Source: a virus. Taken from it: a stretch of DNA of 30,471 nucleotides. The notes under the pieces were generated by a model. That model saw only the letters and a program-made list of their open reading frames with translations, made no database searches and was not told the DNA's origin. How positions within the stretch are numbered: the stretch's first letter is position 1; every line of letters starts with the position of its first letter. This document shows positions 3,296 through 26,350 of the stretch, piece by piece. Both the position numbers and the translations under genes were made by a program. The stretch spans positions 1-30,471 of IMG/VR virus record IMGVR_UViG_3300030451_006653; one strand, given 5' to 3'.

Positions 3296-3324
3296 CCTAA
3301 AAAAAATGGTTGATTTCTTTTTTT
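3290..3324 (+). terminator. Hairpin plus T-run, intrinsic terminator read on plus strand
   Basis: AATCAACC (3290-3297) pairs perfectly with GGTTGATT (3308-3315) across a 10-nt A-rich loop, and TTTTTTT follows at 3318-3324. Read on the plus strand it has the form of a rho-independent terminator, although both flanking genes are on the minus strand. It would stop read-through from phoH. The minus strand has no T-run after the stem. Confidence 0.5.
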
Positions 3325-4630
3325 ACTTAGTTATAATATCTTTAGATAAGAGAGAATGCAGAATGGACTGTAGTTTATCTTCAAATGATATTTTTTCTAA
3401 ACTTAATCCTAAAGCATTATCTTGATTATCTCTTTCTACCTTTAAAATAACGTTTAAATATCTTCTTCTTACATTATCAGGTTTACTTAATGGTTGTTTA
3501 CCCTCTTTTTTAAATATATTCTCAACATATTTTTCAGGAGATACTATACCAACTTTTTTAGCTCTTTCTCTCATACCAGATGATATCTTTGAAACTGCTG
3601 TTTTAATTGCTTTACTACTTAATTTAGTTTCTTCTTTTTTACTTTTCTCTTTATCAATTGCTTTCTTTATTTTTTTCTTTGCATCATCTGATAATTTTTG
3701 CTTTTTATCTTTTATTTCATCTGGAATAATATCTTTACCGCTAGGCATATCATCTTTTAGTTTGGACATTTCTTCATCGTAACTAGCTTTAATTTTATTA
3801 GCAATTATAGTTCTATCTCTATCAGGTAAGTATTCAGGTATTAATTTATTCATAATATCCCTTTCAAACCTTTGATCAAATACGTTTTTATCTTGTCTAT
3901 GTGATTTAAAAATAGGATTACCTTGTTGTATAACTGAACCCATCCCATCTTTTTGGTTTATTTCTCCACCATATATGAAAACTTTTAATACATCTATAAT
4001 ATCATTAATAAATTCAGATTTTGAATGGTGAGCTAACCTATTAGGATCTTTTTTAGGGTCAATTTTATATTCAATATAATCATTAACCATCTCTCTTGCT
4101 GCTAATAAAGTTCTTAAATCAGGATCTAATTTTCTTATTTCTGAATTTTTAAGTCTTTGAAATTCTGCTTTAGTTTGTTTTGCCTTTTCTTGTGGAGTAG
4201 GACCTTTAGGTGTTACACTATCAATTTTTAGATCATATAAATTCTGTTCTGGTCCAGTTAAATCTTCTCCAGCGAATAATTTATCAGATAACTTTTGAAA
4301 TGCTAAATCAGTCATATATAATTTTTTTATAGGGTCACTATCTTTTAAATTAGCATAAGGTTTTACATTTGTCTTTTCTTTACCGAAAGGTTTTAATTGA
4401 GTCATTAAATTAGCTCTTTTTTGAGCCATATCTAAGTCTTGATCCATTCTCCTTCTTCTTCTACCTTTAAAATCTAAAGCTTTACCGGTTCTGTCTATTA
4501 TATCTCCAACTATTGACCTAGCTCTATTTACATCAGGACCAGTTTGCGTTGTATTAACTGGAGTCTGCTCATTTAATAAATTTTTAAAAGTACCAGATTC
4601 AAATACTTCATTTATTTTTTCATTATTCAT
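3323..4630 (-). CDS. Large charged hypothetical protein, possible internal head protein
   Basis: 435 aa, very rich in Lys, Asp, Glu and Arg, with an Arg cluster (GRRRRRMD, about 56-63) and a Lys-rich helix region (about 310-345). No enzyme motif is visible. The N-terminus ends in Leu-Asn-Glu at 19-21, the (L/I)-x-E form cut by the T4 prohead protease. Many late genes here share this kind of leader, so I infer a packaged or core-type protein; the sequence does not prove it. A late-type octamer (ATTAAATA, 4645-4638) lies 7 nt before the ATG. It is divergent from folE2, with overlapping promoters between them. Confidence 0.6.
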   Translation of the reverse strand: MNNEKINEVFESGTFKNLLNEQTPVNTTQTGPDVNRARSIVGDIIDRTGKALDFKGRRRRRMDQDLDMAQKRANLMTQLKPFGKEKTNVKPYANLKDSDPIKKLYMTDLAFQKLSDKLFAGEDLTGPEQNLYDLKIDSVTPKGPTPQEKAKQTKAEFQRLKNSEIRKLDPDLRTLLAAREMVNDYIEYKIDPKKDPNRLAHHSKSEFINDIIDVLKVFIYGGEINQKDGMGSVIQQGNPIFKSHRQDKNVFDQRFERDIMNKLIPEYLPDRDRTIIANKIKASYDEEMSKLKDDMPSGKDIIPDEIKDKKQKLSDDAKKKIKKAIDKEKSKKEETKLSSKAIKTAVSKISSGMRERAKKVGIVSPEKYVENIFKKEGKQPLSKPDNVRRRYLNVILKVERDNQDNALGLSLEKISFEDKLQSILHSLLSKDIITK

Positions 4631-4631
4631 C

Positions 4632-4659
4632 TTGAAATATTTAATCTATAATCTATAAT
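4632..4659 (+). promoter_or_regulatory. Early sigma70-type promoter of folE2
   Basis: TTGAAA (4632-4637), 16 bp, TATAAT (4654-4659), then 9 nt to the ATG. A second TATAAT lies at 4647-4652. Confidence 0.75.
4638..4645 (-). promoter_or_regulatory. Late-type octamer of the 3323-4630 gene
   Basis: ATTAAATA on the minus strand, 7 nt before the ATG at 4630. Weaker than the other late motifs (6 of 8). It lies inside the opposing early promoter of folE2. Confidence 0.45.
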
Positions 4660-4668
4660 AATACATAT

Positions 4669-5718
4669 ATGAGTAAAAAAGAAACAGATTCTGGTTATGA
4701 ATGGTTAGGTGAAGATGATGAGCTTACCGGTGAAAAAGATGTCATCGCTAAAGAAATTATGGGTGAAGAATTTGCAAAAGGTTACTTTCCTCCGATTAGA
4801 GTTTACGATGACAATGTAAATGCTGATAAAAAGTATATTTCATCGTTACCTGATCTTCAAAATGGACCTTCTAGTTTAATTCAAGGAGCTGCTGTACCGA
4901 TTCAACAAGTTGGTATACATAATTTTAGATTACCTCTTAATTATAAAAAGAGAGATGGTAAAACTATTGAATTGGAAACTAGTGTAACTGGTAGTGTTAG
5001 TTTAGAAGCCCATAAAAAGGGTATTAATATGTCTCGTATTATGAGAAGTTTTTATGATCATAAAGATGAGATATTTAGCATCGATAAAATTAAGGATGTA
5101 TTAGAAACTTATAAAGAAAATCTTAAAGTATTTGATTCTCGTATAATGCTTAAGATTTCATATCCTATTAAGCAAAAAAGTTTACGTAGCGGGTTAGAAG
5201 GTTATCAATATTATGATGTAGTATTCGAAGGTGATCTTACTAAAGATGGTGAATTTAAGAAGTATATTCACTTTGATTTTGTTTATTCCTCTGCTTGTCC
5301 TTGTAGTTTTGAGCTAAGTGAACATGCTGAGAAGTACCGTAACCGTGCTACAGTACCTCATAGTCAACGAAGTGTTGCAAGAGTAAGCGTACGCTTTGAT
5401 GATATGCTTTGGATTGAAGATATACAAGAATTATGTTTAGCTGCTCTTCAAACTGAAACTCAAGTAATGGTTAAAAGAGAAGATGAGCAAGCATTTGCTG
5501 AAAAGAATGGTGCTTATCTTAAGTTTGTAGAAGATGCTGTAAGATTATTATATGAAAAACTAAATAATGAGTCTCGTATTAAAGATTTTAAAATTGTAGC
5601 TTCTCATAATGAAAGTCTTCATAGTCATAATGCTATATCTGTTATTGTAAAAGGTATACAAGGTGGTTTTAGAGCCGGAGTTGCTAGAGATACTTTTGAA
5701 TCAACTGGTTTAAGATAA
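4669..5718 (+). CDS. folE2: GTP cyclohydrolase IB (FolE2/MptA family)
   Basis: Hydrolyses GTP to 7,8-dihydroneopterin triphosphate, the entry point for both folate and 7-deazaguanine synthesis. FolE2 landmarks in order: VGIHNFRLPL (81-90), TGSVSLEAHKKGINMSR (107-123) with active-site Glu113, SSACPCS (207-213) with the metal-site cysteines, PHSQRS (230-235), TQVMVKREDEQAFAEKNG (264-281), and KFVEDAVRLLYE. The protein has 349 aa, with an N-terminal extension of about 60 mostly acidic residues before the conserved part. The start at 4669 is set by an early promoter 9 nt upstream. It probably feeds QueD and QueE of this phage, since no folate genes are visible. Confidence 0.93.
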   Translation: MSKKETDSGYEWLGEDDELTGEKDVIAKEIMGEEFAKGYFPPIRVYDDNVNADKKYISSLPDLQNGPSSLIQGAAVPIQQVGIHNFRLPLNYKKRDGKTIELETSVTGSVSLEAHKKGINMSRIMRSFYDHKDEIFSIDKIKDVLETYKENLKVFDSRIMLKISYPIKQKSLRSGLEGYQYYDVVFEGDLTKDGEFKKYIHFDFVYSSACPCSFELSEHAEKYRNRATVPHSQRSVARVSVRFDDMLWIEDIQELCLAALQTETQVMVKREDEQAFAEKNGAYLKFVEDAVRLLYEKLNNESRIKDFKIVASHNESLHSHNAISVIVKGIQGGFRAGVARDTFESTGLR

Positions 5719-5740: not shown

Positions 5741-6271
5741 ATGAATATATTTTGTACTGATAACGACCCTGATATAGCAGCTTTTGATCTTTGCGATCAA
5801 CATGTTAGATCTAAAATGCAAATTGAAGGTGCTATAATGTTAGCTCATGCATTTGATCAAGAAGTATTAAATCATAAAGACTGTCCTAGAACTAAACTTG
5901 GTAAACCTCGTAAAAGCGGTAAAGGGTATTACAATCATCAATGTAGTATATGGGCTAGAGAATCTAAAGATAATTTTAGATGGTTAGTTGACCATACTTT
6001 AACAATGTTTGAAGAAAGAAATTATAGGTGGCCTGGAAGCCCTACACATCATACTTTAGCTTTTATAGAATGGTGTTATAAGAACGTGCATAATACTAAT
6101 ATTACTAAAGAAAGTATGACGCCGTTTGCAGTAGCTATTAGCGATAATTGTGAATGTAGAAAGAATCCAAAATTTGATAGTCTATCGACTTTAGAAAAAT
6201 ATAAAGAGTATATAAGAAAAGATAAACCTTTTGCAACGTGGACTAGAAAAAAACCCCCGGCTTGGTATTAA
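5741..6271 (+). CDS. Conserved phage protein of unknown function
   Basis: 176 aa, starting MNIFCTDNDPDIAAFDLCD and ending in a Pro-Pro-x-Trp-Tyr motif. In between are CDQHVRSKM with a following Glu, and WARESKDNFRWLVDH. From memory this pattern belongs to a family widespread in T4-like phages whose function I cannot name. The many invariant-looking Asp, His, Trp and Glu residues suggest an enzyme. It follows folE2 by 22 nt with its own TATAAT box. Its TAA shares bases with the stop codon of the convergent gene at 6268-6684. Confidence 0.75.
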   Translation: MNIFCTDNDPDIAAFDLCDQHVRSKMQIEGAIMLAHAFDQEVLNHKDCPRTKLGKPRKSGKGYYNHQCSIWARESKDNFRWLVDHTLTMFEERNYRWPGSPTHHTLAFIEWCYKNVHNTNITKESMTPFAVAISDNCECRKNPKFDSLSTLEKYKEYIRKDKPFATWTRKKPPAWY

Positions 6272-6684
6272 TCTAAATTATTTTCAGCACTAACGTCAAT
6301 AAGACCGCCAAGTTTTTCTATAAAATCTTTACCTAATAAAATTTTATATTCATTTGCTTCTCTATCACCAATTGAGAATTTAGTTTCAGGATAAGCAACG
6401 TCTCCTACTTCTATATCAAAAAGTACAACTGGTCTTGTTTCTATATTACCTGAACCGACATTTATATCGATATTTTCTATTACCTCTTTAGTAATATTTT
6501 TACCGTCTACAGTATCAAATGATATAGTACCGTCATCATTTTTAACAATATTAAGACCGTGCAATACATTATATGCACCATTACCACTATCTACTTTAGC
6601 TTCTATAGATCCTAATTCATCGAATACTATAGTTTCAATTAGACCTAATGGTTTATTTTCGTAAAAAGTTTTAAAGTTAATCAC
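6268..6684 (-). CDS. Retropepsin-like aspartic protease-fold protein (RimK-associated type)
   Basis: 138 aa. After a short leader (MINFKTFYEN) the sequence follows the retropepsin-like family linked to RimK: EAKVDSGNG (28-36) with the predicted catalytic Asp32 in Asp-Ser-Gly, a hydrophobic middle strand (RPVVLFDIEVG), then ILLGKDFIEKLGGLIDVSAEN, matching the family's LLG-x-x-F ending before an Asp. The usual Asp-Thr-Gly is Asp-Ser-Gly. Such proteins act as dimers, with one Asp from each subunit. The start is a GTG at 6684, chosen because CATAAATA lies exactly 5 nt upstream. Late expression and the leader suggest a virion-associated protein. Its substrate is unknown. Confidence 0.7.
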   Translation of the reverse strand: MINFKTFYENKPLGLIETIVFDELGSIEAKVDSGNGAYNVLHGLNIVKNDDGTISFDTVDGKNITKEVIENIDINVGSGNIETRPVVLFDIEVGDVAYPETKFSIGDREANEYKILLGKDFIEKLGGLIDVSAENNLD

Positions 6685-6689: not shown

Positions 6690-6697
6690 TATTTATG
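6690..6697 (-). promoter_or_regulatory. Late promoter octamer of the retropepsin-like gene
   Basis: CATAAATA on the minus strand, 5 nt before the GTG at 6684. It overlaps the stop codon of the upstream histone-like gene. Confidence 0.65.
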
Positions 6698-6878
6698 CTT
6701 TAGCTTCGTTCTTCTTCTCTTGAATTTGTTTTCTAAGTTCCTTAGCTAATTTTGTTATTTCTAATAAAGCTTTTCTTGCTCTTGTTCCAGCTGCTGAATT
6801 ACCAGATGTATTAAATTTTTCGATATCAGTGCTAAAAGATTCAAAATTACTTTTTACTTTTTCAATATTTTCTATCAT
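6693..6878 (-). CDS. Histone H1-like protein, Hc1 family
   Basis: 61 aa, basic and helical. The core GNSAAGTRARKALLEITKLA, followed by KELRKQIQEKKNE, matches the N-terminal helical domain of the bacterial histone H1-like Hc1 family, known from Chlamydia and Bacteroidetes. The long Lys/Ala/Pro-rich C-terminal tail of Chlamydia Hc1 is missing. A DNA-binding or DNA-packing role is inferred from the family. A perfect late octamer lies 6 nt before the ATG, so it would be made late and could coat progeny DNA or enter the head. The stop lies 8 nt before the start of the retropepsin-like gene. Confidence 0.75.
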   Translation of the reverse strand: MIENIEKVKSNFESFSTDIEKFNTSGNSAAGTRARKALLEITKLAKELRKQIQEKKNEAKA

Positions 6879-6884: not shown

Positions 6885-6892
6885 TATTTATA
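6885..6892 (-). promoter_or_regulatory. Late promoter TATAAATA of the Hc1-like gene
   Basis: Perfect octamer on the minus strand, 6 nt before the ATG at 6878. It overlaps the stop codon of the upstream glycosyltransferase gene. Confidence 0.7.
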
Positions 6893-7574
6893 GCAACACT
6901 TTATCTTTATCAAACCATGAATTACTATATTCATGTACTCCGTATATTGTATTATCATCTTTACCTTCTTCTTTCTTTCTATATTTTTCAAAAAATAAAC
7001 ATGATTTTATTTCAAAATTAAAATTATTTGCTTTGTAAAAATTAGATAGTAAAATTGGACCTGCTTTAGTTAAAACATTTATTATATCAGTTTGCCATTG
7101 ATTTTGAGCTATTCTATTATTTCTATCTATTAAATTAAAATATTTTATTTGTTTACATAATTTATTAAAAAATATAGAATTATTATTATAAAATATTGAA
7201 TTGGTTATAAATTCTTCACCTTTATAGAATGAATCACTCTCCTTCAATAAAAGAATATTTTCATTGTTAATTAAAGTTTCTATATTTTTAAAAAAGAATA
7301 TATCAGTATCACAATATAAACCATTATAAGCATCTAATATAAAAAATTTAGATGCATCGATGCGTTGTATTTTATATTCATAATTATCAAAAGTATCTAA
7401 AAAATAATTATATTTTTCTTTAATTAATTCTCTACATTCATCGATATTCCAAAGTTTATAATTCCAATCTTTATGATTATCTATTAAACTTTGTTGATTA
7501 ATTTTATATTTGTCTGGTAAAATTCCATTATCCCAAATTTGATGTAAATTTTTCTTCATATTTATTTTTACCAT
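6888..7574 (-). CDS. Glycosyltransferase with DXD sugar-binding motif (OCH1/GT32 type)
   Basis: 228 aa. Predicted to transfer a sugar from a nucleotide-sugar donor. The family pattern is clear: LHQIWDNG near the start, SLIDNHKDWNYKLWN, then RIDASKFFILDAYNGLYCDT with the metal-binding Asp89-Thr-Asp91, and a C-terminal HEYSNSWF. The acceptor is unknown. An in-frame ATG at 7559 would remove five residues and is equally plausible; neither has a well-spaced Shine-Dalgarno. It overlaps the upstream gene by 47 nt. It is the last gene of the A+T-rich sugar island. Confidence 0.8.
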   Translation of the reverse strand: MVKINMKKNLHQIWDNGILPDKYKINQQSLIDNHKDWNYKLWNIDECRELIKEKYNYFLDTFDNYEYKIQRIDASKFFILDAYNGLYCDTDIFFFKNIETLINNENILLLKESDSFYKGEEFITNSIFYNNNSIFFNKLCKQIKYFNLIDRNNRIAQNQWQTDIINVLTKAGPILLSNFYKANNFNFEIKSCLFFEKYRKKEEGKDDNTIYGVHEYSNSWFDKDKVLL

Positions 7575-8271
7575 CTCCTGACCACATTATAGCATTATCA
7601 TTATGATCTTTATCTTTATATGATTTATCTAAAAGTTTTAAAGAAAGGGTGTTATTATAAAACTTATGCAATGCTTTATGATCACCATTCCAATCTAAAT
7701 AATTTTTTTCTTCAAATAAAAACATATTAATTTTGTTTATAAATTCCTTTACTCTATCATTATTTTTAAAATATAAAAAACCTTCATTAGAAAAAATATC
7801 TTCATTTTCTGGATTTTTAACAGTACATATATCATCAGACAGTTGTGTAAAAATATCATCAAAGTTTTGAAGTACCAAAGTATCACAGTCTAATGATAAA
7901 ACGTTATATTTTTTATCTAATAATTCTTTAATAGATTTAAATCTTGAATGGCATGTATAAAAACTTCTCGGGCTATATAATACTTTTTTTATTTCTAATA
8001 TATTTTTTATATCATATACGTGTTTTAACTCTTGTTTATTTTTTGTTTTAAATAAAGTTTTTTCTTGACTTAAATTAGGATTATCAATTATTATATTAAC
8101 GTTGTATTTCTCTTTAAATTCATTTATTTGAACATCTGTAAAATCTACTAATCTAACAAATACCTCAATTTTTGAATTTACTTTTTCTAAAGTTCGGATT
8201 AAATTACTAACATAATTGACGTAATTATAATCAGTTGAACAAGTAATAGCATTTTTAAAAATAGTTTTCAT
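7528..8271 (-). CDS. Putative glycosyltransferase, DXD type
   Basis: 247 aa. The N-terminal ITCSTDYNYVNYVSNLIRTL resembles the first strand and helix of GT-A fold glycosyltransferases, and SLDCDTLVLQNFDDI carries Asp128-Cys-Asp130, a DXD metal site. Late in the protein NAIMWSGDGKNKYE matches a HMWSGQSQEK stretch in the gene at 12028-12819, and the N-terminal halves also correspond, so the two are probably diverged paralogues. It overlaps the amidinotransferase gene by 17 nt. Donor and acceptor are unknown. Confidence 0.65.
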   Translation of the reverse strand: MKTIFKNAITCSTDYNYVNYVSNLIRTLEKVNSKIEVFVRLVDFTDVQINEFKEKYNVNIIIDNPNLSQEKTLFKTKNKQELKHVYDIKNILEIKKVLYSPRSFYTCHSRFKSIKELLDKKYNVLSLDCDTLVLQNFDDIFTQLSDDICTVKNPENEDIFSNEGFLYFKNNDRVKEFINKINMFLFEEKNYLDWNGDHKALHKFYNNTLSLKLLDKSYKDKDHNDNAIMWSGDGKNKYEEKFTSNLG

Positions 8272-9328
8272 ATTTACTTTTTCTTCTTATATCTAAAGTA
8301 GTACAATGATGAGCTCCGCTAAATAGCTCACAATGTCTAAAAGGTGAACCTATAGCTTGAATATTATATTTTTTTAGTTCTTTATTTAAAATATTTTCAT
8401 ATTGCGGATGACATATAATAAGCTCTTTATTTACTGAAAAAACATTTAATTCTATTCTTGGTGATGCTAAATTTACATCTTGTTTTTTATATTCAGATAC
8501 ATCTCTTTGTCTTAAAGGTATATAAATTAAATCCCAATTTTTTAACTCTTTAGGTAATTTATCCTTTACATCAGGTCTCATTACTAATCCTAATCCCGGT
8601 TTTAAAGGTAAAAATGTTGAATCAATATGAGAATCAGTTAAGTTTGAAGTTAAAATTTTATAATTACTACCTAAAGTATTTTGTAACCATTTTGCACCTA
8701 GCATTTGATTTTTATTTGATACATTCATTAAAATATGTTTACCCATTCTAACGCAATTAGCTGCATCAAACATTATTTCAGTACCTAATCCCATGTAGTC
8801 ATCTTTTATTTTATAATCATTATATGCATCGTCATATACAGACATATCAAAGCTTGTATCAAGAATTAAAGGTCTTGGGGCAGATATCCATTTAGCACCA
8901 TTTTTAAAATAATTTAGAAACAAATGTTTCATATAATCATTCTCAAAAATTCTCCACCTACATGAAGGAGGGGTTTCAATAATAGTATCATCAACTATCA
9001 TGCATAAATCTCTAACATTTAATGCAGGGTAATCAGTACTCTCCCAGTTCGGAGTTTTAATTTTATTTACCTTCTTAGGTACTTTAGGTCTCTGTACTAT
9101 AACGTTAAAAGATTTTAATAGATCTACATATTTTTCTATATCTTCTCTATGTTCATCAACATGTCTTTTTTGAATATATTGCTTTATATCAAATACTTTA
9201 CCAAAAATATTATCATGAAAAAATAACTTAAACGAAAAGTCTAAAGCAGGTATAGTATCTGGAAATCCGTCTCCTACTATTACTTCTTGTAATTCATCCC
9301 ATTCATTATGACTGTTAACTATCTTCAT
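8255..9328 (-). CDS. Glycine amidinotransferase-like enzyme
   Basis: 357 aa. Transfers an amidino group, typically from arginine, to an amine. The catalytic set of the arginine:glycine amidinotransferase family is in place with family spacing: Arg106-Asp107 in NVRDLCMIVDD, Asp188 in FDAAN, His234 in SHIDSTF, and the nucleophile Cys342 in SGAHHCTTLDIRR. The acceptor may not be glycine. In this operon the neighbours are a PLP sugar aminotransferase-like protein, a LmbE deacetylase and a nucleotide-sugar epimerase, so a guanidino-sugar is an attractive inference. Nothing in the sequence fixes the acceptor. It overlaps the next gene upstream by 14 nt. Confidence 0.85.
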   Translation of the reverse strand: MKIVNSHNEWDELQEVIVGDGFPDTIPALDFSFKLFFHDNIFGKVFDIKQYIQKRHVDEHREDIEKYVDLLKSFNVIVQRPKVPKKVNKIKTPNWESTDYPALNVRDLCMIVDDTIIETPPSCRWRIFENDYMKHLFLNYFKNGAKWISAPRPLILDTSFDMSVYDDAYNDYKIKDDYMGLGTEIMFDAANCVRMGKHILMNVSNKNQMLGAKWLQNTLGSNYKILTSNLTDSHIDSTFLPLKPGLGLVMRPDVKDKLPKELKNWDLIYIPLRQRDVSEYKKQDVNLASPRIELNVFSVNKELIICHPQYENILNKELKKYNIQAIGSPFRHCELFSGAHHCTTLDIRRKSKYENYF

Positions 9329-17755: not shown

Positions 17756-18030
17756 TACTTTTTCTTTTTCTTCCAATTGACTCGTTTAGAGCTCTTCTTC
17801 TGATACATCTTACCTTTAATCTTACGGCATTCTGCTTTAGTTGGTCTACATGCTGGGTAACTACCACCAGACTTTCTTGATTTGCGTCCGCAAGGACCTC
17901 CAGTTTTACAATTTATCCAACCGCTAAATTTTTTACCAGTTTTTGGATCTTTACCTCCGCGTTTGAACCATTGATGAAGACTGTCACTGGCTTCATTAAC
18001 GTAGTATTCATATAGTTCATCAAAATTCAT
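17755..18030 (-). CDS. Small basic Cys-containing protein, possible internal head protein
   Basis: 91 aa. After a leader MNFDELYEYYVNE (ending in Val-Asn-Glu, a possible prohead-protease site) comes a strongly basic domain with spaced cysteines: INCKTGGPCGRK, then SYPACRPTKAEC. The four cysteines, with few hydrophobic residues, suggest a small metal-bound or disulphide fold; from memory it resembles the DUF5872 type found in phages and large viruses. It ends in a Lys-rich tail. AAAGG lies 7 nt before the ATG. Role inferred: a DNA-contacting protein packaged in the head. Confidence 0.7.
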   Translation of the reverse strand: MNFDELYEYYVNEASDSLHQWFKRGGKDPKTGKKFSGWINCKTGGPCGRKSRKSGGSYPACRPTKAECRKIKGKMYQKKSSKRVNWKKKKK

Positions 18031-18032: not shown

Positions 18033-18200
18033 TTAACCTTTACGCATTTTATTAGCATGCAACTTATCACCTGCTTTTTTAGCTGCTTTATAAGCTTTAG
18101 AACCTTTTCTTGCAGATTTGCGACCAGACTTCTTCTTTTTATTGATATTAGCCCATAAACTTTCTACTAATTGGTCAAACGTTTTTATTTTTTCTTCCAT
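18033..18200 (-). CDS. 55-aa Lys/Arg-rich small protein
   Basis: A small gene that fills the gap between two neighbours: ATG at 18200, stop at 18033. The start overlaps the end of the upstream gene by 16 nt, and the stop lies 2 nt before the next start. The N-terminus MEEKIKTFDQLVE ends in Leu-Val-Glu, the same type of leader as its neighbours. The rest is extremely basic (KKKKSGRKSARKGSKAYKAA) and free of Cys, resembling histone tails. Likely a DNA-binding internal protein by composition; no homologue is named. Confidence 0.78.
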   Translation of the reverse strand: MEEKIKTFDQLVESLWANINKKKKSGRKSARKGSKAYKAAKKAGDKLHANKMRKG

Positions 18201-18736
18201 ATCTTACCTTTTCTACATCTTACTATTGCACCAGACTTATATGCTGAAGTTTTTTTACCATAAACTTGATCAGCTTTCCTTTTACACCTATCAGCAGCAT
18301 CTTCTTCAGCAGCTAAATTTTTATCTATAAATGATTTAAATTCATTTACTTTTATACCCCCCATGGTATTGATAAAATCTTCACTACCTGCCCCTACCTC
18401 TTTTTCTGGCAATTGAATACTTTGACCTTGAGGGTTATATATAGTACCGTAGTAAAAATATCTTTCATTAGGTTCTTCATCTTGCTCAACTTCTAAATGA
18501 TATCCTCTATAGCTTATACCGTAATCGGTGAATCTACTAAAAAATTCATCATTTGTTAAATCTTTTACTTTCATTTCTGAAGATCCTTGTTTAGCTTTTT
18601 CTAATTTTCTTTTAAGCATATCAACGTATTCAGTTCCACCACCATACATTTTAACTCTGCTTGGGTCTGGATTAGCAATTAAAGCTTCAAGACTTTCAAT
18701 TTCAGATTCTTCAAAAAATATTTTAAACGACTTCAT
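18185..18736 (-). CDS. Hypothetical protein with conserved basic Cys-pair C-terminal module
   Basis: 183 aa. N-terminal leader MKSFKIFFEESEIESLE, an acidic mixed middle (about 60-140), then a basic module of about 35 residues at the end: two cysteines flanking YGKKTSAYKSGAIV, followed by RKGKIWKKK. I recall this end module from several otherwise different marine virus proteins, so it may be a portable DNA- or head-binding tag. A late octamer (AATAAATA) lies exactly 5 nt before the ATG. It heads the group 17755-18736. Confidence 0.7.
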   Translation of the reverse strand: MKSFKIFFEESEIESLEALIANPDPSRVKMYGGGTEYVDMLKRKLEKAKQGSSEMKVKDLTNDEFFSRFTDYGISYRGYHLEVEQDEEPNERYFYYGTIYNPQGQSIQLPEKEVGAGSEDFINTMGGIKVNEFKSFIDKNLAAEEDAADRCKRKADQVYGKKTSAYKSGAIVRCRKGKIWKKK

Positions 18737-18741: not shown

Positions 18742-18749
18742 TATTTATT
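18742..18749 (-). promoter_or_regulatory. Late promoter octamer of the 18185-18736 gene
   Basis: AATAAATA on the minus strand, 5 nt before the ATG at 18736. It overlaps the stop codon of the upstream gene. Confidence 0.65.
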
Positions 18750-18945
18750 TTTTCTTTCCGCCTTTCATATTAGCACACCAATGATACATTTTACCTTTTT
18801 CTCCACCATATTTTTTAGCTTTACGTCTTAGCTCTGATACCGAGCCTTTACAACTAGCTCCAGCTCGTTTAACACGTCCAGGTCTACTTTTACCTTTACG
18901 TTTACCGTCTGCATAGTTTTCAAAATATGTTTGGAAGTTAATCAT
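18745..18945 (-). CDS. 66-aa basic Cys-pair protein
   Basis: Leader MINFQTYFEN, then a strongly basic body. A conserved-looking module CKGSVSELRRKAKKYGGEKG leads to MYHWCANMKGGKKK, with one Cys at each end. I recall this pattern from other marine phage proteins, without known function. The ATG overlaps the upstream TGA as ATGA. The gene belongs to the run of small basic late proteins and is probably packaged with DNA (inference). Confidence 0.72.
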   Translation of the reverse strand: MINFQTYFENYADGKRKGKSRPGRVKRAGASCKGSVSELRRKAKKYGGEKGKMYHWCANMKGGKKK

Positions 18946-19319
18946 TTGTTTTTTCTCATTCTTTGCGTTTTACGTTTGCTTGCTTCTTTACGTTTACTAA
19001 TATAATTATACGCAGCAGTTAATCTTTTCTTTTTAACTGGATCTTTTACCCTCCCTTTAGCAGCTCTTACTCTTTGATGAATTAAATTAATAATTTGTGA
19101 CTGTCTTGCATGTGATTTTGCTTTAAATGATTTTTTACTTAGTGTATCTCTAATATCTGAAGCAGTACTAAACTTTACTTTAACAGTATCTTTAGGATTT
19201 TCATCAGTATAAAGCCTTCTACCTGAACCTTTAGGTTTCTTACCAGTACCTTTTTTAGGGTCAGCTTCTAAAAGTATACTTTCTACTAAAGTATTAAATT
19301 TATTTACCATTTTCGACAT
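18942..19319 (-). CDS. Basic hypothetical protein with cleavable-type leader
   Basis: 125 aa from the ATG at 19319. An in-frame TTG at 19325 is possible, but AAGG lies 8 nt before the ATG. The leader MSKMVNKFNTLVESILLE ends in Leu-Leu-Glu before Ala, a very T4-like prohead-protease site. After it come a Lys/Gly-rich stretch (KKGTGKKPKGSGRR), a short domain with possible helix (DIRDTLSKKSFKAKSHARQS) and a basic end. No cysteines. The 3' end overlaps the next start as ATGA. Probably a packaged DNA-binding protein. Confidence 0.7.
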   Translation of the reverse strand: MSKMVNKFNTLVESILLEADPKKGTGKKPKGSGRRLYTDENPKDTVKVKFSTASDIRDTLSKKSFKAKSHARQSQIINLIHQRVRAAKGRVKDPVKKKRLTAAYNYISKRKEASKRKTQRMRKNK

Positions 19320-19624
19320 GACCAATACCTTGCTTTAGTTTTAGGACCAGGATTATCACAATTATGTCTAGCTCTAAATGATCTACGACGAGCAGGGTTT
19401 GATTTTCTAATTTTCATTGTTTTTTCTCCTCGTCTTTTAGCAGAAGTACCACCATGCCCAAAATTTACCTTCTTAACATTACCAGTTTTAGGATCTTTTA
19501 CATATACTTTAAATTTTTTAACATCACCTCTCATAGGTTTGTTAAGTTTTACTTTTCTACCTCTATATTCTGCATCTTCTTCAAAAGATTCAAGTAAGCT
19601 AGATACTGCATCATTAAAATTCAT
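19304..19624 (-). CDS. 106-aa basic protein with conserved Cys-pair C-terminus
   Basis: Leader MNFNDAVSSLLE, ending in Leu-Leu-Glu. The rest is basic: a short strand-rich part (KKFKVYVKDPKTGNVKKVNF), then NPARRRSFRARHNCDNPG and a second Cys in ARYWSCRKW at the very end. I recall this C-terminal signature as conserved in marine T4-like phages, with no assigned function. A late octamer lies 5 nt before the ATG. It starts the six-gene run that ends at 17755 and is divergent from the acidic protein at 19657. Confidence 0.75.
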   Translation of the reverse strand: MNFNDAVSSLLESFEEDAEYRGRKVKLNKPMRGDVKKFKVYVKDPKTGNVKKVNFGHGGTSAKRRGEKTMKIRKSNPARRRSFRARHNCDNPGPKTKARYWSCRKW

Positions 19625-19629: not shown

Positions 19630-19637
19630 TATTTATT
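19630..19637 (-). promoter_or_regulatory. Late promoter octamer of the 19304-19624 gene
   Basis: AATAAATA on the minus strand, 5 nt before the ATG at 19624. It is back to back with the plus-strand late promoter at 19644. Confidence 0.65.
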
Positions 19638-19643: not shown

Positions 19644-19651
19644 TATAAATA
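19644..19651 (+). promoter_or_regulatory. Late promoter TATAAATA of the acidic protein gene
   Basis: Perfect T4 late octamer on the plus strand, exactly 5 nt before the ATG at 19657, so +1 would fall on the start codon. Confidence 0.75.
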
Positions 19652-19656: not shown

Positions 19657-20502
19657 ATGGCAAATAAAGATAGTGACTTGATTTACGAAGCTTATAATAA
19701 AAGTCTTAATGAAGACCTAGGTTTAGGACCAAAAGTAGGAAAAGTAATGAGGCTAGCAGGGGATTTGAATAATGATATGTCTAGACCTGCAAAAGTAACA
19801 ATTCATATTCAAAATTTAGAAGATGAAGAAGATGATAGAATTTCATCTTTTAAAAAGTTACAAAAAGCAAAAGAAAATATGACTAAGATACAACCTGAGA
19901 AAGAAAAAGAAAATAATAAAAAAGAAGAAGAAATGGTTTATATACAAGCAGGTGAACCAACCGAGTCAAGTTGCGGTGGTGATTGTGAAGGTGATTGTGG
20001 AGATGATTGCAGTTGTGATGATAAAGAAGAAAAAAGACAAATTTATGATGGTGAATTAGATATGGCAAGACTAGAATTGCTGAAAGCTAATGAGTATGCA
20101 GCTAAATTATTTCACCATATTGGTAACCATCCTGAAAGTGATTATTTAGAAGGATGGGTAGCTAGTAAAATTACTAAAGCAGCAGATTACTTATCTTCAG
20201 TTTACCATTACTTAGATTATGAAGATAATTTTGCTACAAGAGAGCCATGTTATAGTGATGAAGAAATCGATTCATTGGTAGGTCAACCAACAGCAAAAGA
20301 TACTGGATTTGCAGGAGATGAAGAATCTTGCGACGAAGAATGTGACGAAGGTCAATCTGCTGCTAATGATGAAATGATGGAATACTATTATGAAAAGGGT
20401 TTAGAAAGAGGTTTATCTATATTTAAAGATAAAGAAAAAGCTAAAAAATATGCTCTTGATTTTACTCAAAAAATGATGGAAAGACCCGGACCCCACGGAT
20501 AA
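19657..20502 (+). CDS. Acidic Cys-cluster protein with conserved helical domain
   Basis: 281 aa, acidic. Leader ending in Leu-Asn-Glu (17-19); a Lys/Glu-rich linker (about 65-92); a dense cysteine cluster with the repeat Cys-x3-Cys (CGGDCEGDCGDDCSCD, about 105-120); then a helical domain with KANEYAAKLFHHIGNHPE and WVASKITKAADYLSSVYHYL (about 142-188). I recall the last stretch as a conserved phage domain of unknown function. A second acidic Cys group follows (DEESCDEECDEG). The clusters could bind metal. It is the only plus-strand gene between two long minus runs and has a perfect late promoter. Probably virion-associated. Confidence 0.7.
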   Translation: MANKDSDLIYEAYNKSLNEDLGLGPKVGKVMRLAGDLNNDMSRPAKVTIHIQNLEDEEDDRISSFKKLQKAKENMTKIQPEKEKENNKKEEEMVYIQAGEPTESSCGGDCEGDCGDDCSCDDKEEKRQIYDGELDMARLELLKANEYAAKLFHHIGNHPESDYLEGWVASKITKAADYLSSVYHYLDYEDNFATREPCYSDEEIDSLVGQPTAKDTGFAGDEESCDEECDEGQSAANDEMMEYYYEKGLERGLSIFKDKEKAKKYALDFTQKMMERPGPHG

Positions 20503-20600: not shown

Positions 20601-22400
20601 TTAAATTAACTTATTATCAAATATACGTTTAACATCCTCATTAGCTGAGCCGTATAAATCTATTAATAATTCTCTTCTTACTTTTTCATCACCCTTACGG
20701 TAAATGTCTCTAATTTGCGAAGCACTAGTAATATTTTTACCTAATATATCAAAATTCATAGTAGGTAATGTATCAATATACCCATGTTTAGCAGAAAATT
20801 CAGCTTCCCCTACACTTTCAAAAGGTTGAAAATAGCTAGGTGACCCATCTCTTTTAGTGCCAAATTTAAATCTAGGTTTATCACCTTGCATATCTTTTTC
20901 ACTAACTGCAAAAATAATTTTAGTATTATCAGAATTATATTTTTGTACTATTTCTTGGGCAAGATATGGGTTAGTAGTCTGTACTACCATATTAGGATCT
21001 ACACCAGCATGCTTGATTAGTACTTTCTTTTCTTCAAAATTAAAAGGTGATTTATCATTATCAGATTTATTAGATGTTGAAATATAAACATCAGCAAAAG
21101 GAAATTTTTCTTTTAAACTATTATAAACTGATGCATGACCTTTATGGAATGGATGAAATCTACCAGGATAAATAACAACCGTTTTAAATTGTTTATTTTC
21201 TTCAAATTCATTTACTAAATTAAACATTTCTCCGAAAGAAGAAACTTTACTTCTTAATCTAGTACCTTCACCAGTATTAAAAACAGGAGGATTATTTATA
21301 TAATTTGAATAATAAGGCGCTACTTCAGTTTCATCTTCATTTCTAAACTTACTTTCCATTCCTTTAACTATAAACTCGCCAGTAATTTTAACAGGTGCAG
21401 GAGATATTTTTGGATCTCTTATAACTATTCCTTCATGATATTTTACTTCACCCATATCTGATGTTAAAGTAGTTAAAAGCTCATCTCCTAACAATCTAGT
21501 TGCATGATATATTACTGCACCGTCAATAGCTTTTTGAAAATCATCTTCATCTTCTACAAATAAATCTACCGGTACACCGTTTAAAATTTGCATATAAACA
21601 AACTTACTTAAAGCACCGACTCTCTTACCATCTTCTAAAGTTATCATCTCCCCGAAAGGATTATTAGCTTCTTCTAAAAACTTAATTAAAGGTTTTTGTA
21701 TTTTTTGATTTTTAATTGTAACGTTAAAATTTTTATTTAAAACATTTTGAAAATTAGGTCTTTTAGTAAATCTTGTTGGTACACTACCGTAAACTTTAAA
21801 ATTATATTTTTCTGCAAACTTGTTTAATTTTTTTATTAAATTATCCAATATTCTAGGATTAACTTCTACTTCTTTACTAGCTCTTCTTCTAGGAGTTACT
21901 TGATAAAATTCATTAACACCGTGAATAGCTAAAAAATCATTCTCATATTGTAAAACATTAGATTGACCTTCTACAAATTCAGTATTAAAAAATCGATTTG
22001 TATTATCAATCATACCTAATTTTTTTAGCTCAGGTTCAATATTAGGTAAAGCCTCATTCATTATAGATAAAAGTTTTTGCCCAGCATTTACCATACCATG
22101 ACCTTCACCGAATCTATCTAATAGTTTATCTATAGTAATACCTTGAAGGTCGAGTGGTTTCATAGAACCTCTATCTAATGCAAATCTTTTACCTTCAGGG
22201 GTATCTACTAGTCTAAAACTAGCATTAACACCGTCGATTTTTAAAGCTGGGGCATTAGTTGCAATACTATTTACTATTCGATTAAAAAAATTAATTAAAT
22301 CTTTTCCTGTTTTATTTGTAGGTAAATCGAAAGGATGAGCCATATGCCCTGCAGCTCCTCCTTCATTAATTAAATTATATAGTTCTTTAAAATTTCTCAT
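20601..22400 (-). CDS. RNA-ligase-like and NMNAT-like two-domain protein
   Basis: 599 aa from the ATG at 22400, which overlaps the upstream TGA as ATGA; an upstream start adds six residues. The leader MRNFKELYNLINE ends in Ile-Asn-Glu. The N-terminal domain has motifs of covalent nucleotidyltransferases (RNA/DNA ligases): KIDG (54-57) as motif I, Glu141 in FFNTEFVE as motif III, EGIVIRD (323-329) as motif IV, and FIVKG (Lys346) as motif V. The C-terminal domain (about 406-570) has GRFHPFHKGH (413-422), the HxGH of nicotinamide-nucleotide adenylyltransferase relatives, and TSASQIR (558-564), like ISSTxIR. So one chain may both adenylylate or seal nucleic acid ends and make a dinucleotide such as NAD. 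The spacing between ligase motifs I and IV is longer than in T4 Rnl2, so ligase activity is not certain. Confidence 0.72.
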   Translation of the reverse strand: MRNFKELYNLINEGGAAGHMAHPFDLPTNKTGKDLINFFNRIVNSIATNAPALKIDGVNASFRLVDTPEGKRFALDRGSMKPLDLQGITIDKLLDRFGEGHGMVNAGQKLLSIMNEALPNIEPELKKLGMIDNTNRFFNTEFVEGQSNVLQYENDFLAIHGVNEFYQVTPRRRASKEVEVNPRILDNLIKKLNKFAEKYNFKVYGSVPTRFTKRPNFQNVLNKNFNVTIKNQKIQKPLIKFLEEANNPFGEMITLEDGKRVGALSKFVYMQILNGVPVDLFVEDEDDFQKAIDGAVIYHATRLLGDELLTTLTSDMGEVKYHEGIVIRDPKISPAPVKITGEFIVKGMESKFRNEDETEVAPYYSNYINNPPVFNTGEGTRLRSKVSSFGEMFNLVNEFEENKQFKTVVIYPGRFHPFHKGHASVYNSLKEKFPFADVYISTSNKSDNDKSPFNFEEKKVLIKHAGVDPNMVVQTTNPYLAQEIVQKYNSDNTKIIFAVSEKDMQGDKPRFKFGTKRDGSPSYFQPFESVGEAEFSAKHGYIDTLPTMNFDILGKNITSASQIRDIYRKGDEKVRRELLIDLYGSANEDVKRIFDNKLI

Positions 22401-23410
22401 GTTAATGTACAACTCCACCCTTTACCGTCTTTACGACGTGAAAATCTAAAATTGCCTTTTAAATTATTTATTTTAGAATAAAAATCAGATAAATTAGATA
22501 CGTTTTGCATATTTACAGTCTGAAGAACTAAATCATTGCCTATTTGATTATAACCTAAGAATACATCAAAACCTTGAGCTTTTTGGTAATAATACAATTG
22601 AACAATACCACCTATTTGGGTAATCATATTTACACCTAATCTACCCATACCAGGTCTTAATCTTCCTCTTTGTAGATAATAATCCCTTTCCTGAAACATT
22701 AGATCTGAAAGATTATGATCTTTAATTAGTTTTAAAAGTTCATCTTTTGATTGTTCTAAGCCACAATATTTAGCAATAAACTTACTAATATTTTGTAAGA
22801 TTGATTCATTGTTATCACTAGTTTCTTCTAAGTCACTAAAGTCATCAGTTAGAGCTGCAGTTTTACATAATCTGCCGCCTGGGCCTTTTAATTCAATTTC
22901 TAAACCACCAGTACTTAAATCCCCTTTTTTAGGTTTTACTCCATCACATATAAATGCTAAGTATAACTCTCCACATCCTGGAGCTCCATGAGTAGGTGCT
23001 TCTGGTAGCGCGCACCATGCTTTATCAAAATATTTGTTATACACATCAGTATTAGGAAAACTATTATTAATAAATTCATCCAATTTAAATAAAGCACTAT
23101 TATTACATAAATTTACTAAATTATTTTGAGCAGATTTAAATTTATCATCATTTAATTCAATTCTAGCTGCATAGGTGTAACTTTGAAATGTATTGAGATT
23201 ATCATTAATATTACCACCAGCTTTTTCTAATCTATCTTCTATTTTTTTTCTTCCAGCTATACTATCAGTAGATCCCATTTTCATATAACGAGATAAAATA
23301 TCTTCGTAATATTTTTGATCTACATTTGCAAGTAATTCATAACTATCACCCTTTTTTGTATAAAGAGCAACATCTTCGTTATATACTTTATCTAGTGGTC
23401 TCCAGCTCAT
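22397..23410 (-). CDS. PD-(D/E)XK-like putative nuclease
   Basis: 337 aa. The core KKGDLSTGGLEIELKGPGGR contains Asp164, Glu173 and Lys175 in the Asp...Glu-x-Lys arrangement of restriction-endonuclease-fold enzymes, with Glu148 in GELYLAF as a possible helix residue. A glycine-rich GPGGR follows, as in related phage proteins. The N-terminal 120 residues are helical and unknown. ATGA overlaps join it to both neighbours, so it is coupled to the ligase/NMNAT-like protein. Substrate unknown; a structural role with a remnant nuclease fold is possible. It lacks the (L/I)-x-E leader of its neighbours. Confidence 0.6.
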   Translation of the reverse strand: MSWRPLDKVYNEDVALYTKKGDSYELLANVDQKYYEDILSRYMKMGSTDSIAGRKKIEDRLEKAGGNINDNLNTFQSYTYAARIELNDDKFKSAQNNLVNLCNNSALFKLDEFINNSFPNTDVYNKYFDKAWCALPEAPTHGAPGCGELYLAFICDGVKPKKGDLSTGGLEIELKGPGGRLCKTAALTDDFSDLEETSDNNESILQNISKFIAKYCGLEQSKDELLKLIKDHNLSDLMFQERDYYLQRGRLRPGMGRLGVNMITQIGGIVQLYYYQKAQGFDVFLGYNQIGNDLVLQTVNMQNVSNLSDFYSKINNLKGNFRFSRRKDGKGWSCTLT

Positions 23411-23748
23411 AACCCAACGTCTATATCAGATGAATATTTTTTCAGAATATTAATTAGACGTTTGAGAGCTTCTTTGGCATTATTTTCATTGATATCTTCG
23501 AAATCACCAATTGCAGTTAAATCCTCGGCATCAATCTTTGTTGCTAAAGCTTTCTTTATTAATCTAACTAATAAAACTTCACTTTCTGGTGATAACTTAG
23601 TAACTTCAACTTCAGGTACTTCTGGCTCTACTGGTGTAGTTGCCATTAAATTAGAAGGATTACTGTTAGGACTCAATGACTCTGGGTTAGGCATATCACC
23701 TTGCTGTAACTCATTAATAAGTTTATCTATTGTACTAACAAAATTCAT
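23407..23748 (-). CDS. Small hypothetical protein with cleavable-type leader
   Basis: 113 aa. Leader MNFVSTIDKLINE ends in Ile-Asn-Glu. Then comes a Pro/Ser/Asn/Glu-rich linker (about 18-50) and a helical C-terminal part (SEVLLVRLIKKALATKIDAE, then LKRLINILKKY). Unknown family. Acidic overall. The ATG overlaps the previous stop as TAATG, and the stop overlaps the next start. It belongs to the four-gene unit 23981 to 20601. Confidence 0.65.
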   Translation of the reverse strand: MNFVSTIDKLINELQQGDMPNPESLSPNSNPSNLMATTPVEPEVPEVEVTKLSPESEVLLVRLIKKALATKIDAEDLTAIGDFEDINENNAKEALKRLINILKKYSSDIDVGL

Positions 23749-23981
23749 TATATTTTTCTCTCTAATTCCTCTATTTTAGAAGCAATTTTACTAAAGACTC
23801 TATCTAATGCTTTATTAATTCTTTCTTGACCGCTTTTTTGAAAAAAACGAGATTTCTCTGGAGTAGCTCCTATAGAAGTAGCAACTTTAGCTATTTGACT
23901 TAATTTAGCTAAATCTTCAGATGCATCTTGCTCATTTATTTTGCTTAGTATCTTCGATGCTTTTACAGTATAGTTATCCAT
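23748..23981 (-). CDS. Small helical hypothetical protein with cleavable-type leader
   Basis: 77 aa, predicted mostly helical. Leader ends in Ile-Asn-Glu (15-17). The C-terminal part (RINKALDRVFSKIASKIEEL) has heptad-like spacing, suggesting an oligomerising helix. No family recognised. A late octamer (GATAAATA) lies exactly 5 nt before the ATG, making this the first gene of the unit with the PD-(D/E)XK-like and ligase/NMNAT-like genes. Confidence 0.65.
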   Translation of the reverse strand: MDNYTVKASKILSKINEQDASEDLAKLSQIAKVATSIGATPEKSRFFQKSGQERINKALDRVFSKIASKIEELERKI

Positions 23982-23986: not shown

Positions 23987-23994
23987 TATTTATC
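23987..23994 (-). promoter_or_regulatory. Late promoter octamer of the nuclease/ligase unit
   Basis: GATAAATA on the minus strand, 5 nt before the ATG at 23981. It overlaps the stop of the upstream gene. Confidence 0.6.
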
Positions 23995-24550
23995 TAATTA
24001 TGAGTAGTTTTGTAGATAACCTATTAAAGTAATCTGTATTAAGAAAACTTAATTCATATTTTTTAGTAAATGATTTAATTTTACTAAAAGTAAATTTTGT
24101 AATATCGATACTATTAATCTTTGAAATCATTGAATTTATAGTAGTATAACCTCGCCCGTCATTGGTATTAATAAGATGGTTTAGATATTCAATTGAATAT
24201 TTGCTTATATAAAATTTAACTGGAAGTAGTTTTTCTATTCTTCTTAGTATATTTGTGATATAATTAAGTTGTTCTGTCTCACTAAAATACTTCATTAAAT
24301 GATTTTCTTCTAACTGAGTATTATTAAAATATACAATTGACTTGGTATCTTTTGATAAAACCTTTTCACATACAGAATATATAATTTGATGTAAAAACCA
24401 TCTTTTTATATTAATATTGTTTATACTATAATCAAGTAAATCTAATTCATATAAAGATTCAATAATGCTATACTGTATTTCAGTATTATACAATTCATTG
24501 AAATCAATAATTTCAATATCATGATTTTTTAAAGTAATATCAGACATCAT
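23990..24550 (-). CDS. Hypothetical protein
   Basis: 186 aa, rich in Ile, Asn, Leu, Ser and Tyr, mixed helical. No motif recognised. Tandem ATG codons at 24550 and 24547 are both possible starts, and the gene overlaps the end of the upstream GIY-YIG gene by 11 nt. It lacks the (L/I)-x-E leader of its late neighbours and has no late octamer at its start, so it is probably expressed from the 26350 transcript. Confidence 0.55.
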   Translation of the reverse strand: MMSDITLKNHDIEIIDFNELYNTEIQYSIIESLYELDLLDYSINNINIKRWFLHQIIYSVCEKVLSKDTKSIVYFNNTQLEENHLMKYFSETEQLNYITNILRRIEKLLPVKFYISKYSIEYLNHLINTNDGRGYTTINSMISKINSIDITKFTFSKIKSFTKKYELSFLNTDYFNRLSTKLLIIR

Positions 24551-24974
24551 TGCTTTTATTATAATACTGTTCCAATAAAATTTGCGGTGGTTTACCTATT
24601 CTACAATTAATAATACCGTTATAGTAGTCTTTATTCAATAAAACGTCTCTATCAAATTGTTCTTTAGCTTCGAAATAACTTAATTCAAACTTACTATTAC
24701 AAAATTTTAATATTTTAAATATAAACTTATCATGTCCTAGTGATGAAATATCATTGTTTAATGCATCAGATGAACCTGTATAATTTTTCCAATCACTTTC
24801 TATTAAACTTATACGTTTTCGTTTTTTACCTTTTAAAGGTTTTCTTTTTATTTTACGTACCATTTGTTTTTTACCTATATACTTTTTATTGCTAATAGTA
24901 TTGGTAATTTCATATATAAACCCATATGCATTTTCCGGGATAGGTCCGTAAACTTTCCAATGTCCTGTATCCAC
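24540..24974 (-). CDS. GIY-YIG family endonuclease
   Basis: 144 aa. The nuclease signature is YGFIYEITN (17-25) and KKYIGKKQ (30-37), followed by a basic stretch (RKIKRKPLKGKKRKR), FELSYFEAKEQ with a candidate metal Glu, and YYNGIINCRIG with the usual late Asn. It lacks an added DNA-recognition domain, so a homing role is possible but not shown. Start is GTG at 24974, 8 nt after the upstream stop; no clear Shine-Dalgarno. Confidence 0.75.
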   Translation of the reverse strand: MDTGHWKVYGPIPENAYGFIYEITNTISNKKYIGKKQMVRKIKRKPLKGKKRKRISLIESDWKNYTGSSDALNNDISSLGHDKFIFKILKFCNSKFELSYFEAKEQFDRDVLLNKDYYNGIINCRIGKPPQILLEQYYNKSNDV

Positions 24975-24982
24975 GTTAATAA

Positions 24983-26350
24983 TTACTTCTTTTTTCTTCT
25001 TTTTCTACGTCTTTTACCAACAGAGCCACTTCTTGTTTGTACTGCTCCAAGTGCTTTTGGTATTCTTGCATCACCGGGAGCATAAAAATCACCTTGCGTG
25101 TTACCGATAGCAGCAGCTGGACCTAATGCTCCCCCGCCGACCGAATTATCATCTTCTTCTTTTACCTTTTTCCTACCCTCTTTTTTAGAAGCTTCTTTCT
25201 TTTTATCTTTATGAACTCGAGTTTTTGAGCCCATTAACCCTTGTTTATTTTTTCTAACTTTAATATTTTCATCAATAGGGTCGTATGGCGAGTCAGTTAA
25301 TCCTGACTTAGGGGTTTTACCCGTAAGTTCAGCAACCCTTGTTGTAAGACGTTTTATAAAATATGGGTTATCTTCTAAATGATGTGGAATTCCATCAACG
25401 ACATACCTGTGCGTTAGATGAAAATAAATTTGTTTTGGATCTGTTATACCCCTATCTACTAAATCTTTTATATATGGTTCTGCTATTTTCATGATTCCGC
25501 TTAAAGGTCTACCATCAGGGGAAGTATCTTCAGAAGCCTCGCGCCCTGAAGGAAAGCCATGCCTCATGTATGGTGTTTTATATTCTTGACTTTCATCTTT
25601 AGCATCAAGATAAGCAGCTATAGCCATTTCTCTTTTTTTCTTTTTAGACTTACCTTTAAATTGTGGAGCTTTAGACTTAGCAAAATCTTTTACATAATCA
25701 CCTGCATCATGTTTTTTAGGATCTAATTTTTCATTTAAACCTTTTCTCATTCTTAATATTTTTTGGTACATTAATCCTAATTGAGTGTAATCACCTGAAC
25801 CATCATTTTGTAAATCTTCAAGTTTAAGAGGCGTGTTGTGAAATTTATCTACTTCTTTATCTTCTTTATCTATAGCTTCACGTCTAGCTGTTAAATACTT
25901 ACCGTCGTTTTGAAATTGATAAAATTTACTACGTGCAGCTTCTTTTTCCGGACCGGGTGGTAAACTAATTGCTTTTTTACCTAATTCCATTCTTTGTTTT
26001 TCAAGTCGTTTATGTTCACCATAGTAATCATATTTCTTTTTAAACTCTTCAGTTTCATATATACGAGGTCTTTCTAATCCTTTATTAAGATAATTTCCTA
26101 AGTTTTGTAAAAATTTAGCTATAAGTACTTCAGGATTTTTTGTATCAAATGCAGCATTGGTCATACCATATTTGTTTCCTGAATATAAAAAAGCAAAAGA
26201 ACCTGCATCAAAAATTTGACGTCTAGTTTTACCTACCAAACTATTCATAAAGTCTCTGAAAGTACCGCCCATACTTTGCTTCATTAGTTCATAATTATCT
26301 TCACTTAATAAGACTTTAAATTTCTTTTCATATAGACTTGTTTTTCGCAT
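24983..26350 (-). CDS. Large basic hypothetical protein, possible internal head protein
   Basis: 455 aa from the ATG at 26350; an upstream in-frame start adds 13 residues but would place the late promoter inside the gene. Leader MRKTSLYEKKFKVLLSE ends in Leu-Ser-Glu. The body is charged and helical with Lys-rich patches (GKSKKKKREMAIAAY). The C-terminus has a Gly/Ala/Pro stretch (GALGPAAAIGNTQGDFYAPG) and ends in GKRRRKRRKKK. No enzyme motif. A perfect TATAAATA lies exactly 5 nt before the ATG. Inferred to be a packaged or core-associated DNA-binding protein. Confidence 0.68.
   Translation of the reverse strand: MRKTSLYEKKFKVLLSEDNYELMKQSMGGTFRDFMNSLVGKTRRQIFDAGSFAFLYSGNKYGMTNAAFDTKNPEVLIAKFLQNLGNYLNKGLERPRIYETEEFKKKYDYYGEHKRLEKQRMELGKKAISLPPGPEKEAARSKFYQFQNDGKYLTARREAIDKEDKEVDKFHNTPLKLEDLQNDGSGDYTQLGLMYQKILRMRKGLNEKLDPKKHDAGDYVKDFAKSKAPQFKGKSKKKKREMAIAAYLDAKDESQEYKTPYMRHGFPSGREASEDTSPDGRPLSGIMKIAEPYIKDLVDRGITDPKQIYFHLTHRYVVDGIPHHLEDNPYFIKRLTTRVAELTGKTPKSGLTDSPYDPIDENIKVRKNKQGLMGSKTRVHKDKKKEASKKEGRKKVKEEDDNSVGGGALGPAAAIGNTQGDFYAPGDARIPKALGAVQTRSGSVGKRRRKRRKKK

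Follow-up and report, generated by a model that had tools for sequence, protein, structure and literature searches.

Why do 14 genes of one viral DNA stretch, coding for proteins that are mostly unrelated, begin with a short leader ending in a motif that resembles a cleavage site of phage T4? We analyzed the window, i.e., the whole 30,471-base virus record IMGVR_UViG_3300030451_006653. In T4, the protease gp21 cuts after L/I-x-E, and capsid targeting has been proposed as a general packaging route of T4-like phages (PMC9026906); internal proteins of T-even phages are diverse and only their targeting sequence is conserved (PMC3012670). The initial annotation had read the leaders of the window as address tags of this kind. 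Most of our comparisons support this reading: leaders are swapped between bodies, the boundary shows a logo like that of a protease, relatives have gp21, copies in phages that lack gp21 have no leader, and leader-bearing proteins occur in virions of the cyanophage S-CREM2. We consider it very likely that the leaders serve capsid targeting as in T4 and are removed by a prohead protease of the gp21 type; enzymes and DNA-binding proteins are probably carried by this marine T4-like phage together with its DNA.

The 13 genes named in that annotation were all present with leaders as described, and a 14th, gene 22397, had been missed. The likely starts of 20601 and 18942 were corrected to 22400 and 19310, respectively. 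A short N-terminal leader ending in L/I-x-E was found in these 14 genes, with F, Y, or V sometimes at P3, and it is conserved across orthologues for most of them. In the list below, paired values give the identity of the leader versus that of the 25 residues following the Glu (body), a comparison that leaves out 3323 and 23748, which have too few orthologues.

4568..4630, minus strand: leader MNNEKINEVFESGTFKNLLNE of gene 3323-4630 (body net +21), assigned from sequence only and, with 23748, the weakest assignment
6658..6684, minus strand: leader MINFKTFYE of gene 6268-6684 (retropepsin-like protease); orthologues MISFKIFYE, MITFKKFFE, MKKFKQFFAE
17992..18030, minus strand: leader MNFDELYEYYVNE of gene 17755-18030 (basic body); 36 distinct leaders on one body; 0.24 vs 0.77
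18162..18200, minus strand: leader MEEKIKTFDQLVE of gene 18033-18200 (basic body); 0.42 vs 0.91
18710..18736, minus strand: leader MKSFKIFFE of gene 18185-18736, matching the T4 targeting and cutting residues 4, 7, 8, and 10
18919..18945, minus strand: leader MINFQTYFE of gene 18745-18945 (basic module); Glu before the module in 49/49 contexts, hydrophobic-x-Glu in 40/49
19266..19310, minus strand: leader MVNKFNTLVESILLE of gene 18942-19310 (basic module); 0.36 vs 0.96; boundary motif in 29/47
19589..19624, minus strand: leader MNFNDAVSSLLE of gene 19304-19624 (HVA1-family basic module); homologues in complete phages that lack gp21 have no leader
19657..19689, plus strand: leader MANKDSDLIYE of gene 19657-20502 (or up to residue 19, ending in LNE); leader type also on unrelated bodies
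22362..22400, minus strand: leader MRNFKELYNLINE of gene 20601-22400; varying leaders before an invariant GGAAGHMAHPFD; 0.22 vs 0.66
23375..23410, minus strand: leader MSWRPLDKVYNE of gene 22397-23410; orthologues MSWKSLEQVYLQE, MSWKPLDEIYLKE, MSWKPLDQVYLNE
23710..23748, minus strand: leader MNFVSTIDKLINE of gene 23407-23748; hydrophobic-x-Glu conserved among 20 non-redundant members
23931..23981, minus strand: leader MDNYTVKASKILSKINE of gene 23748-23981, judged by its own letters
26300..26350, minus strand: leader MRKTSLYEKKFKVLLSE of gene 24983-26350; leader type common to unrelated bodies, e.g., G034_118955

The aromatic residues 4 and 7, which serve targeting in T4, are present in 6268, 18185, and 18745, whereas the spacing differs in the other leaders. 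The leaders of 22397 orthologues follow the pattern MSWK.L(D/E).(V/I)YL.E. Gene 19657 has two candidate sites, LIYE followed by AY and LNE followed by D, and the relatives favor LI(F/Y)E.

To compare the leaders with chance, 570 N-termini from the window and three related contigs were scored against MKTYQEFIAE, taken from the T4 record, and the counts were set against those expected by shuffling. Scores of at least 25 were reached by 7 N-termini (0.3 expected) and scores of at least 18 by 48 (17 expected). Of the 50 orthologous families compared, most candidates and few controls had a hydrophobic-x-Glu conserved close to the N-terminus. The bodies of orthologues are conserved from directly after the invariant Glu, and the leaders ahead vary in sequence and length; the body GGAAGHMAHPFD of 20601, for example, is preceded by leaders as diverse as MKTFKNYILNE, MKSFKQFIINE, and MKKFSEYFKLIAE. 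Leaders were also found to be exchanged: the ..DLI(F/Y)E.Y..NE type of 19657 precedes GGAAGH bodies in L103, L105, and L107, so that the same leader stands on unrelated bodies, as it does for T4-type capsid targeting sequences. In contig G047, a leader opens most genes between 84.1 and 92.0 kb. By these comparisons, the leaders are real, beyond chance. As a separate observation in that contig, a single protein (G047 84755-85501, L176:4755-5501) joins the bodies that 17755 and 18942 encode as two genes in the window.

The small basic bodies are mobile modules, and the module of 18745 occurs behind many unrelated sequences in other viral contigs. In its 49 distinct contexts, the preceding residue was invariably Glu and the residue two before it was hydrophobic in 40; no comparable conservation was seen at other upstream positions, and the motif occurred 0-5 times at shifted positions. 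No homologue of 18745 was found among annotated phages. For the 18942 module, the boundary motif was present in 29 of the 47 extended contexts, and 15 copies were free-standing. The HVA1 module of 19304 showed the motif at the boundary in 53 of 82 contexts. These boundaries fit what would be left of sites for a protease with the specificity of T4 gp21, and are hard to explain by a folding boundary alone. In the viral contigs L020-L091, the HVA1 module is often preceded by a long acidic segment that closes with x-E (e.g., one ending in DEYDVEDEDEEDFINFLKGYTTEINE directly before AEYQGREV), as if an acidic propeptide masked the module until it is cut.

The protease itself was detected in the related contigs G004, G034, and G047, of which G004 holds an orthologue of 20601 at 65% identity. 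In the gp21-bearing isolates C48C1, HTVC008M, Melnitz-3, and immuto, all four HVA1 homologues are extended and carry hydrophobic-x-Glu at the boundary. In isolates without a Pfam S77 protease, the HVA1 homologues are leaderless: those of Kolga, Aegir, CRP-901, HTVC202P, and HTVC106P start at the module, whereas in CRP-2 and CRP-6 a few unrelated residues come first. The gene is the same in Kolga and Aegir, and the Aegir record is just 18 kb.

Virion data were available for relatives. Genetics of T4 IPIII assigned targeting to residues 4 and 7 and cutting to residues 8 and 10 (PMC9026906). A strict pattern (aromatic residues 4 and 7, hydrophobic residue 8, Glu 10) was compared with the S-CREM2 virion proteome (PMC10665884); its residues come from T4, but it was written after the S-CREM2 N-termini had been seen. 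It was found in 4 of 219 S-CREM2 proteins (0.05 expected by shuffling), and all four were in the virion (SAM hydrolase, APH-like kinase, cytidylyltransferase, and ORF136), which is an enrichment with a Fisher p of 3.5e-4 among the 195 proteins outside the listed structural ones. The T4-leader score, which had been fixed beforehand, gave p values of 0.06, 0.007, 0.011, 0.0016, and 0.27 at thresholds of 15, 18, 20, 22, and 25, respectively. The virion support comes mainly from one phage, S-CREM2. Two further N-termini may be recorded here. A virion-detected Cas9-like nuclease of S-CREM2 (7704-10313, L208) has a leader-like core, FASFMAE followed by A, which an N-terminal extension places 25 residues from the start. 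In the 100 kb of the cyanophage S-SCSM1 that we covered, the closest match to the T4 leader is MKTFKQFMSE of ORF30 (44215-44535, L379), which is not labelled as a virion protein.

The T4 late promoter reads TATAAATA. A similar motif, DATAAATA, was present within 25 nt upstream of 7 of the 42 window genes, compared with 0.7% at random positions. Five of these seven sites head leader genes or runs of them:

26356..26363, minus strand: late-promoter-like TATAAATA before 24983
23987..23994, minus strand: late-promoter-like GATAAATA before the 23748-20601 run
19644..19651, plus strand: late-promoter-like TATAAATA before 19657
19630..19637, minus strand: late-promoter-like AATAAATA before the 19304-18745 run
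18742..18749, minus strand: late-promoter-like AATAAATA before the 18185-17755 run

Over the whole window, TATAAATA was not enriched (10 occurrences vs 17 expected), and the enrichment was seen only just before genes. The sites at 18742-18749, 19630-19637, 23987-23994, and 26356-26363 lie just 5-6 nt upstream of the start codon, and the mRNAs may therefore have almost no 5' untranslated region.

We propose that the leader proteins would be made late and that their leaders would bind the scaffold core of the prohead, by which the proteins would be built into the prohead. The phage's gp21-type (S77) prohead protease would then cut the leaders off after hydrophobic-x-Glu, and the bodies would stay inside the head with the DNA. 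The small lysine-rich bodies would most likely bind the packaged DNA, and the most likely role of the enzymes would be an early one in the next host, comparable to that of T4 Alt and IPI, although this is the least certain step. We infer targeting, cutting, packaging, retention, and injection or delivery in this phage, the virion data being from relatives, and what the enzymes would do in the next host is guessed from the type of domain.

A number of results limit this proposal, weigh against it, or gave it no support. The bare (L/I/V)-x-E motif was rejected as evidence because it is too common: within ~25 N-terminal residues, [LIV]xE occurred in 46/126, 51/183, and 74/219 genes of three relatives (28-37%), and at an internal control position of the same relatives in 32/105, 45/163, and 45/184 genes (24-30%). 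UvsY and the tail sheath passed the simple family filter and are false positives. No gp21 was found in the 30-kb window; the homologue for which the initial annotation suggested a search turned up in the relatives, and several large motif-bearing contigs show no gp21 either. Over all contigs, the relation between gp21 and the extension of the modules was suggestive, yet confounded by T4-like lineage and contig completeness; lineage likewise confounds the comparison of isolates with and without the protease. The offset control of the HVA1 module was high, up to 22/82, partly because the site lies several residues upstream in the window's own lineage. In the 100 kb of S-SCSM1, two proteins bear the motif and only one of them has a virion label (p 0.26, not significant), and the virion proteins of this phage are mostly without a recognizable leader. 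A position matrix from seven window families, when moved to S-CREM2, agreed only in its top two proteins and was not significant overall. The authors of the S-CREM2 and S-SCSM1 studies could not exclude contamination, e.g., carry-over of lysate for S-CREM2 (PMC10665884, PMC9602691).

The frequency of the bare motif and the two false positives would be expected if unrelated N-terminal helices happened to hold hydrophobic-x-Glu. Such a coincidence is quite improbable in view of the family-level conservation, leader swapping, boundary logo, and excess over shuffling, although the assignments of 3323 and 23748, which lack orthologues, could still be due to chance. It is also conceivable, though unlikely, that the leaders dock to the prohead core and mostly remain uncut, hydrophobic-x-Glu being part of the docking helix. 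T4 targeting residues are indeed kept in leaders such as MINFKTFYE, and in T4 targeting still occurs without processing when residue 10 is altered (PMC9026906). Against docking without cutting stands the conservation of Glu and a hydrophobic P3 before mobile modules, even far from N-termini, where nothing else upstream is conserved. Short amphipathic Phe-rich peptides act as addresses in other systems, and the leader might direct proteins to a membrane, the tail, or a nucleus-like compartment; the T4 capsid-targeting residues, late-promoter-like signals, gp21-like logo, and presence of bearers in S-CREM2 virions leave this scarcely credible. Targeting to the capsid followed by cutting is the reading that we prefer.

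The claim that the bodies share nothing held for most of them but needs to be modified, since seven (3323, 17755, 18033, 18745, 18942, 19304, and 24983) are strongly basic, with net charges of +15 to +29. After the leader, 17755, 18033, 18745, 18942, and 19304 consist of 32-38% Lys+Arg, as expected for DNA-bound internal proteins. Gene 6268 encodes a retropepsin-like protease (Pfam Zn_protease, 2.3e-6). A further candidate enzyme is described by the following feature:

20601..22361, minus strand: body of 20601 with ligase-like motifs (by eye) and an NMN-adenylyltransferase-like domain (Pfam, 2qjt)

Its C-terminal part contains a cytidylyltransferase-like domain with GRFHPFHKGH (Pfam CTP_transf_like 8.4e-9; 2qjt 7.4e-6 with a family profile), ahead of which the motifs KIDG and EGIVIRD were recognized by eye. 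The product is thus a putative NMN-adenylyltransferase-like enzyme; its predicted structure was poor (pLDDT 48). The product of 22397 has a conserved GDL..E.K pattern that is similar by eye to PD-(D/E)xK nucleases, for which no significant Pfam, PDB, or Foldseek match was obtained; the C-terminal half of its predicted structure is usable. A further small lysine-rich protein (SAAGTRARKALLEITKLAKELRKQIQEKK; window 6693-6878), histone Hc1-type in look, has TATAAATA upstream and no leader.

The window's set resembles T4 IPI, IPII, IPIII, and the Alt propeptide in its short N-terminal leader, L/I-x-E motif, probable late expression, and diverse bodies, some of them basic and probably DNA-associated (PMC9026906, PMC3012670), and part of it shares the aromatic residues 4 and 7. 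It differs from T4 in that there are ~14 leader genes in 30 kb versus four in T4, several leader types, other cargo, and sites that also precede mobile C-terminal modules. Enzymes of cyanophage virions (NMN adenylyltransferase/cytidylyltransferase, kinase, and SAM hydrolase of S-CREM2, S-SCSM1, and S-SM1) are a further parallel, as their NMN-adenylyltransferase-like proteins carry the leaders MKNFSSFLTE, MKSFLQFLKE, MKSFSQFLTE, and MKLFNQFFKE. Unlike our reading, the S-CREM2 and S-SCSM1 reports propose no targeting leader in the passages covered here. By description, phage P1 is comparable in that an N-terminal signal of DarB suffices to send a reporter to the capsid, whereas no shared consensus has been reported among Dar proteins and there is no separate scaffold (PMC9024508). 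The giant phage SPN3US, according to abstracts, packages many ejection proteins that are matured by a prohead protease. The open-access literature on "capsid targeting" and "cyanophage" yielded only a T4 review, most subscription papers lying outside this scope. The tag principle is thus known from T4, and the number of leader genes, leader swapping, and sites before mobile modules look new.

We tentatively suggest, as a proposal that falls just short of an even chance, that marine T4-like phages possess a general, evolvable head-loading system. With interchangeable leaders and with protease sites before mobile lysine-rich modules, almost any protein could be packaged, released from its carrier within the prohead, and passed on together with the genome; each phage would carry well over a dozen cargo proteins, such as a ligase/NMN-adenylyltransferase, a retropepsin-like protease, and a possible nuclease. 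If true, a signature in the genome sequence would suffice to predict the head proteins carried by a T4-like marine phage, there would be a testable reason for the recurrence of NMN adenylyltransferase, kinases, and SAM hydrolase in cyanophage virions, and a large pool of proteins would be active during the first minutes after abundant ocean bacteria become infected.

The right end of the window carries T4-type genes, namely a UvsY-like gene at 26372 and the late sigma factor gp55 at 28207, together with a helicase at the UvsW position (26764) and a gp47-like nuclease (28668), both named by sequence and gene order. The window is therefore part of a T4-like genome. A SegE-type GIY-YIG endonuclease gene (24540-24974; Pfam 9.8e-32) adjoins UvsY/UvsW, and T4 segE likewise lies beside uvsW. 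The ~11 kb between leader genes (6888-17742) appears to hold genes for sugar and surface modification, named by eye as glycosyltransferase-like, NAD-epimerase-like, aminotransferase-like, and radical SAM. At 444-5718, QueD-like (phrog_2389), radical-SAM QueE-like, and other genes, of which only QueD has a family match, suggest 7-deazaguanine synthesis and perhaps DNA modification.

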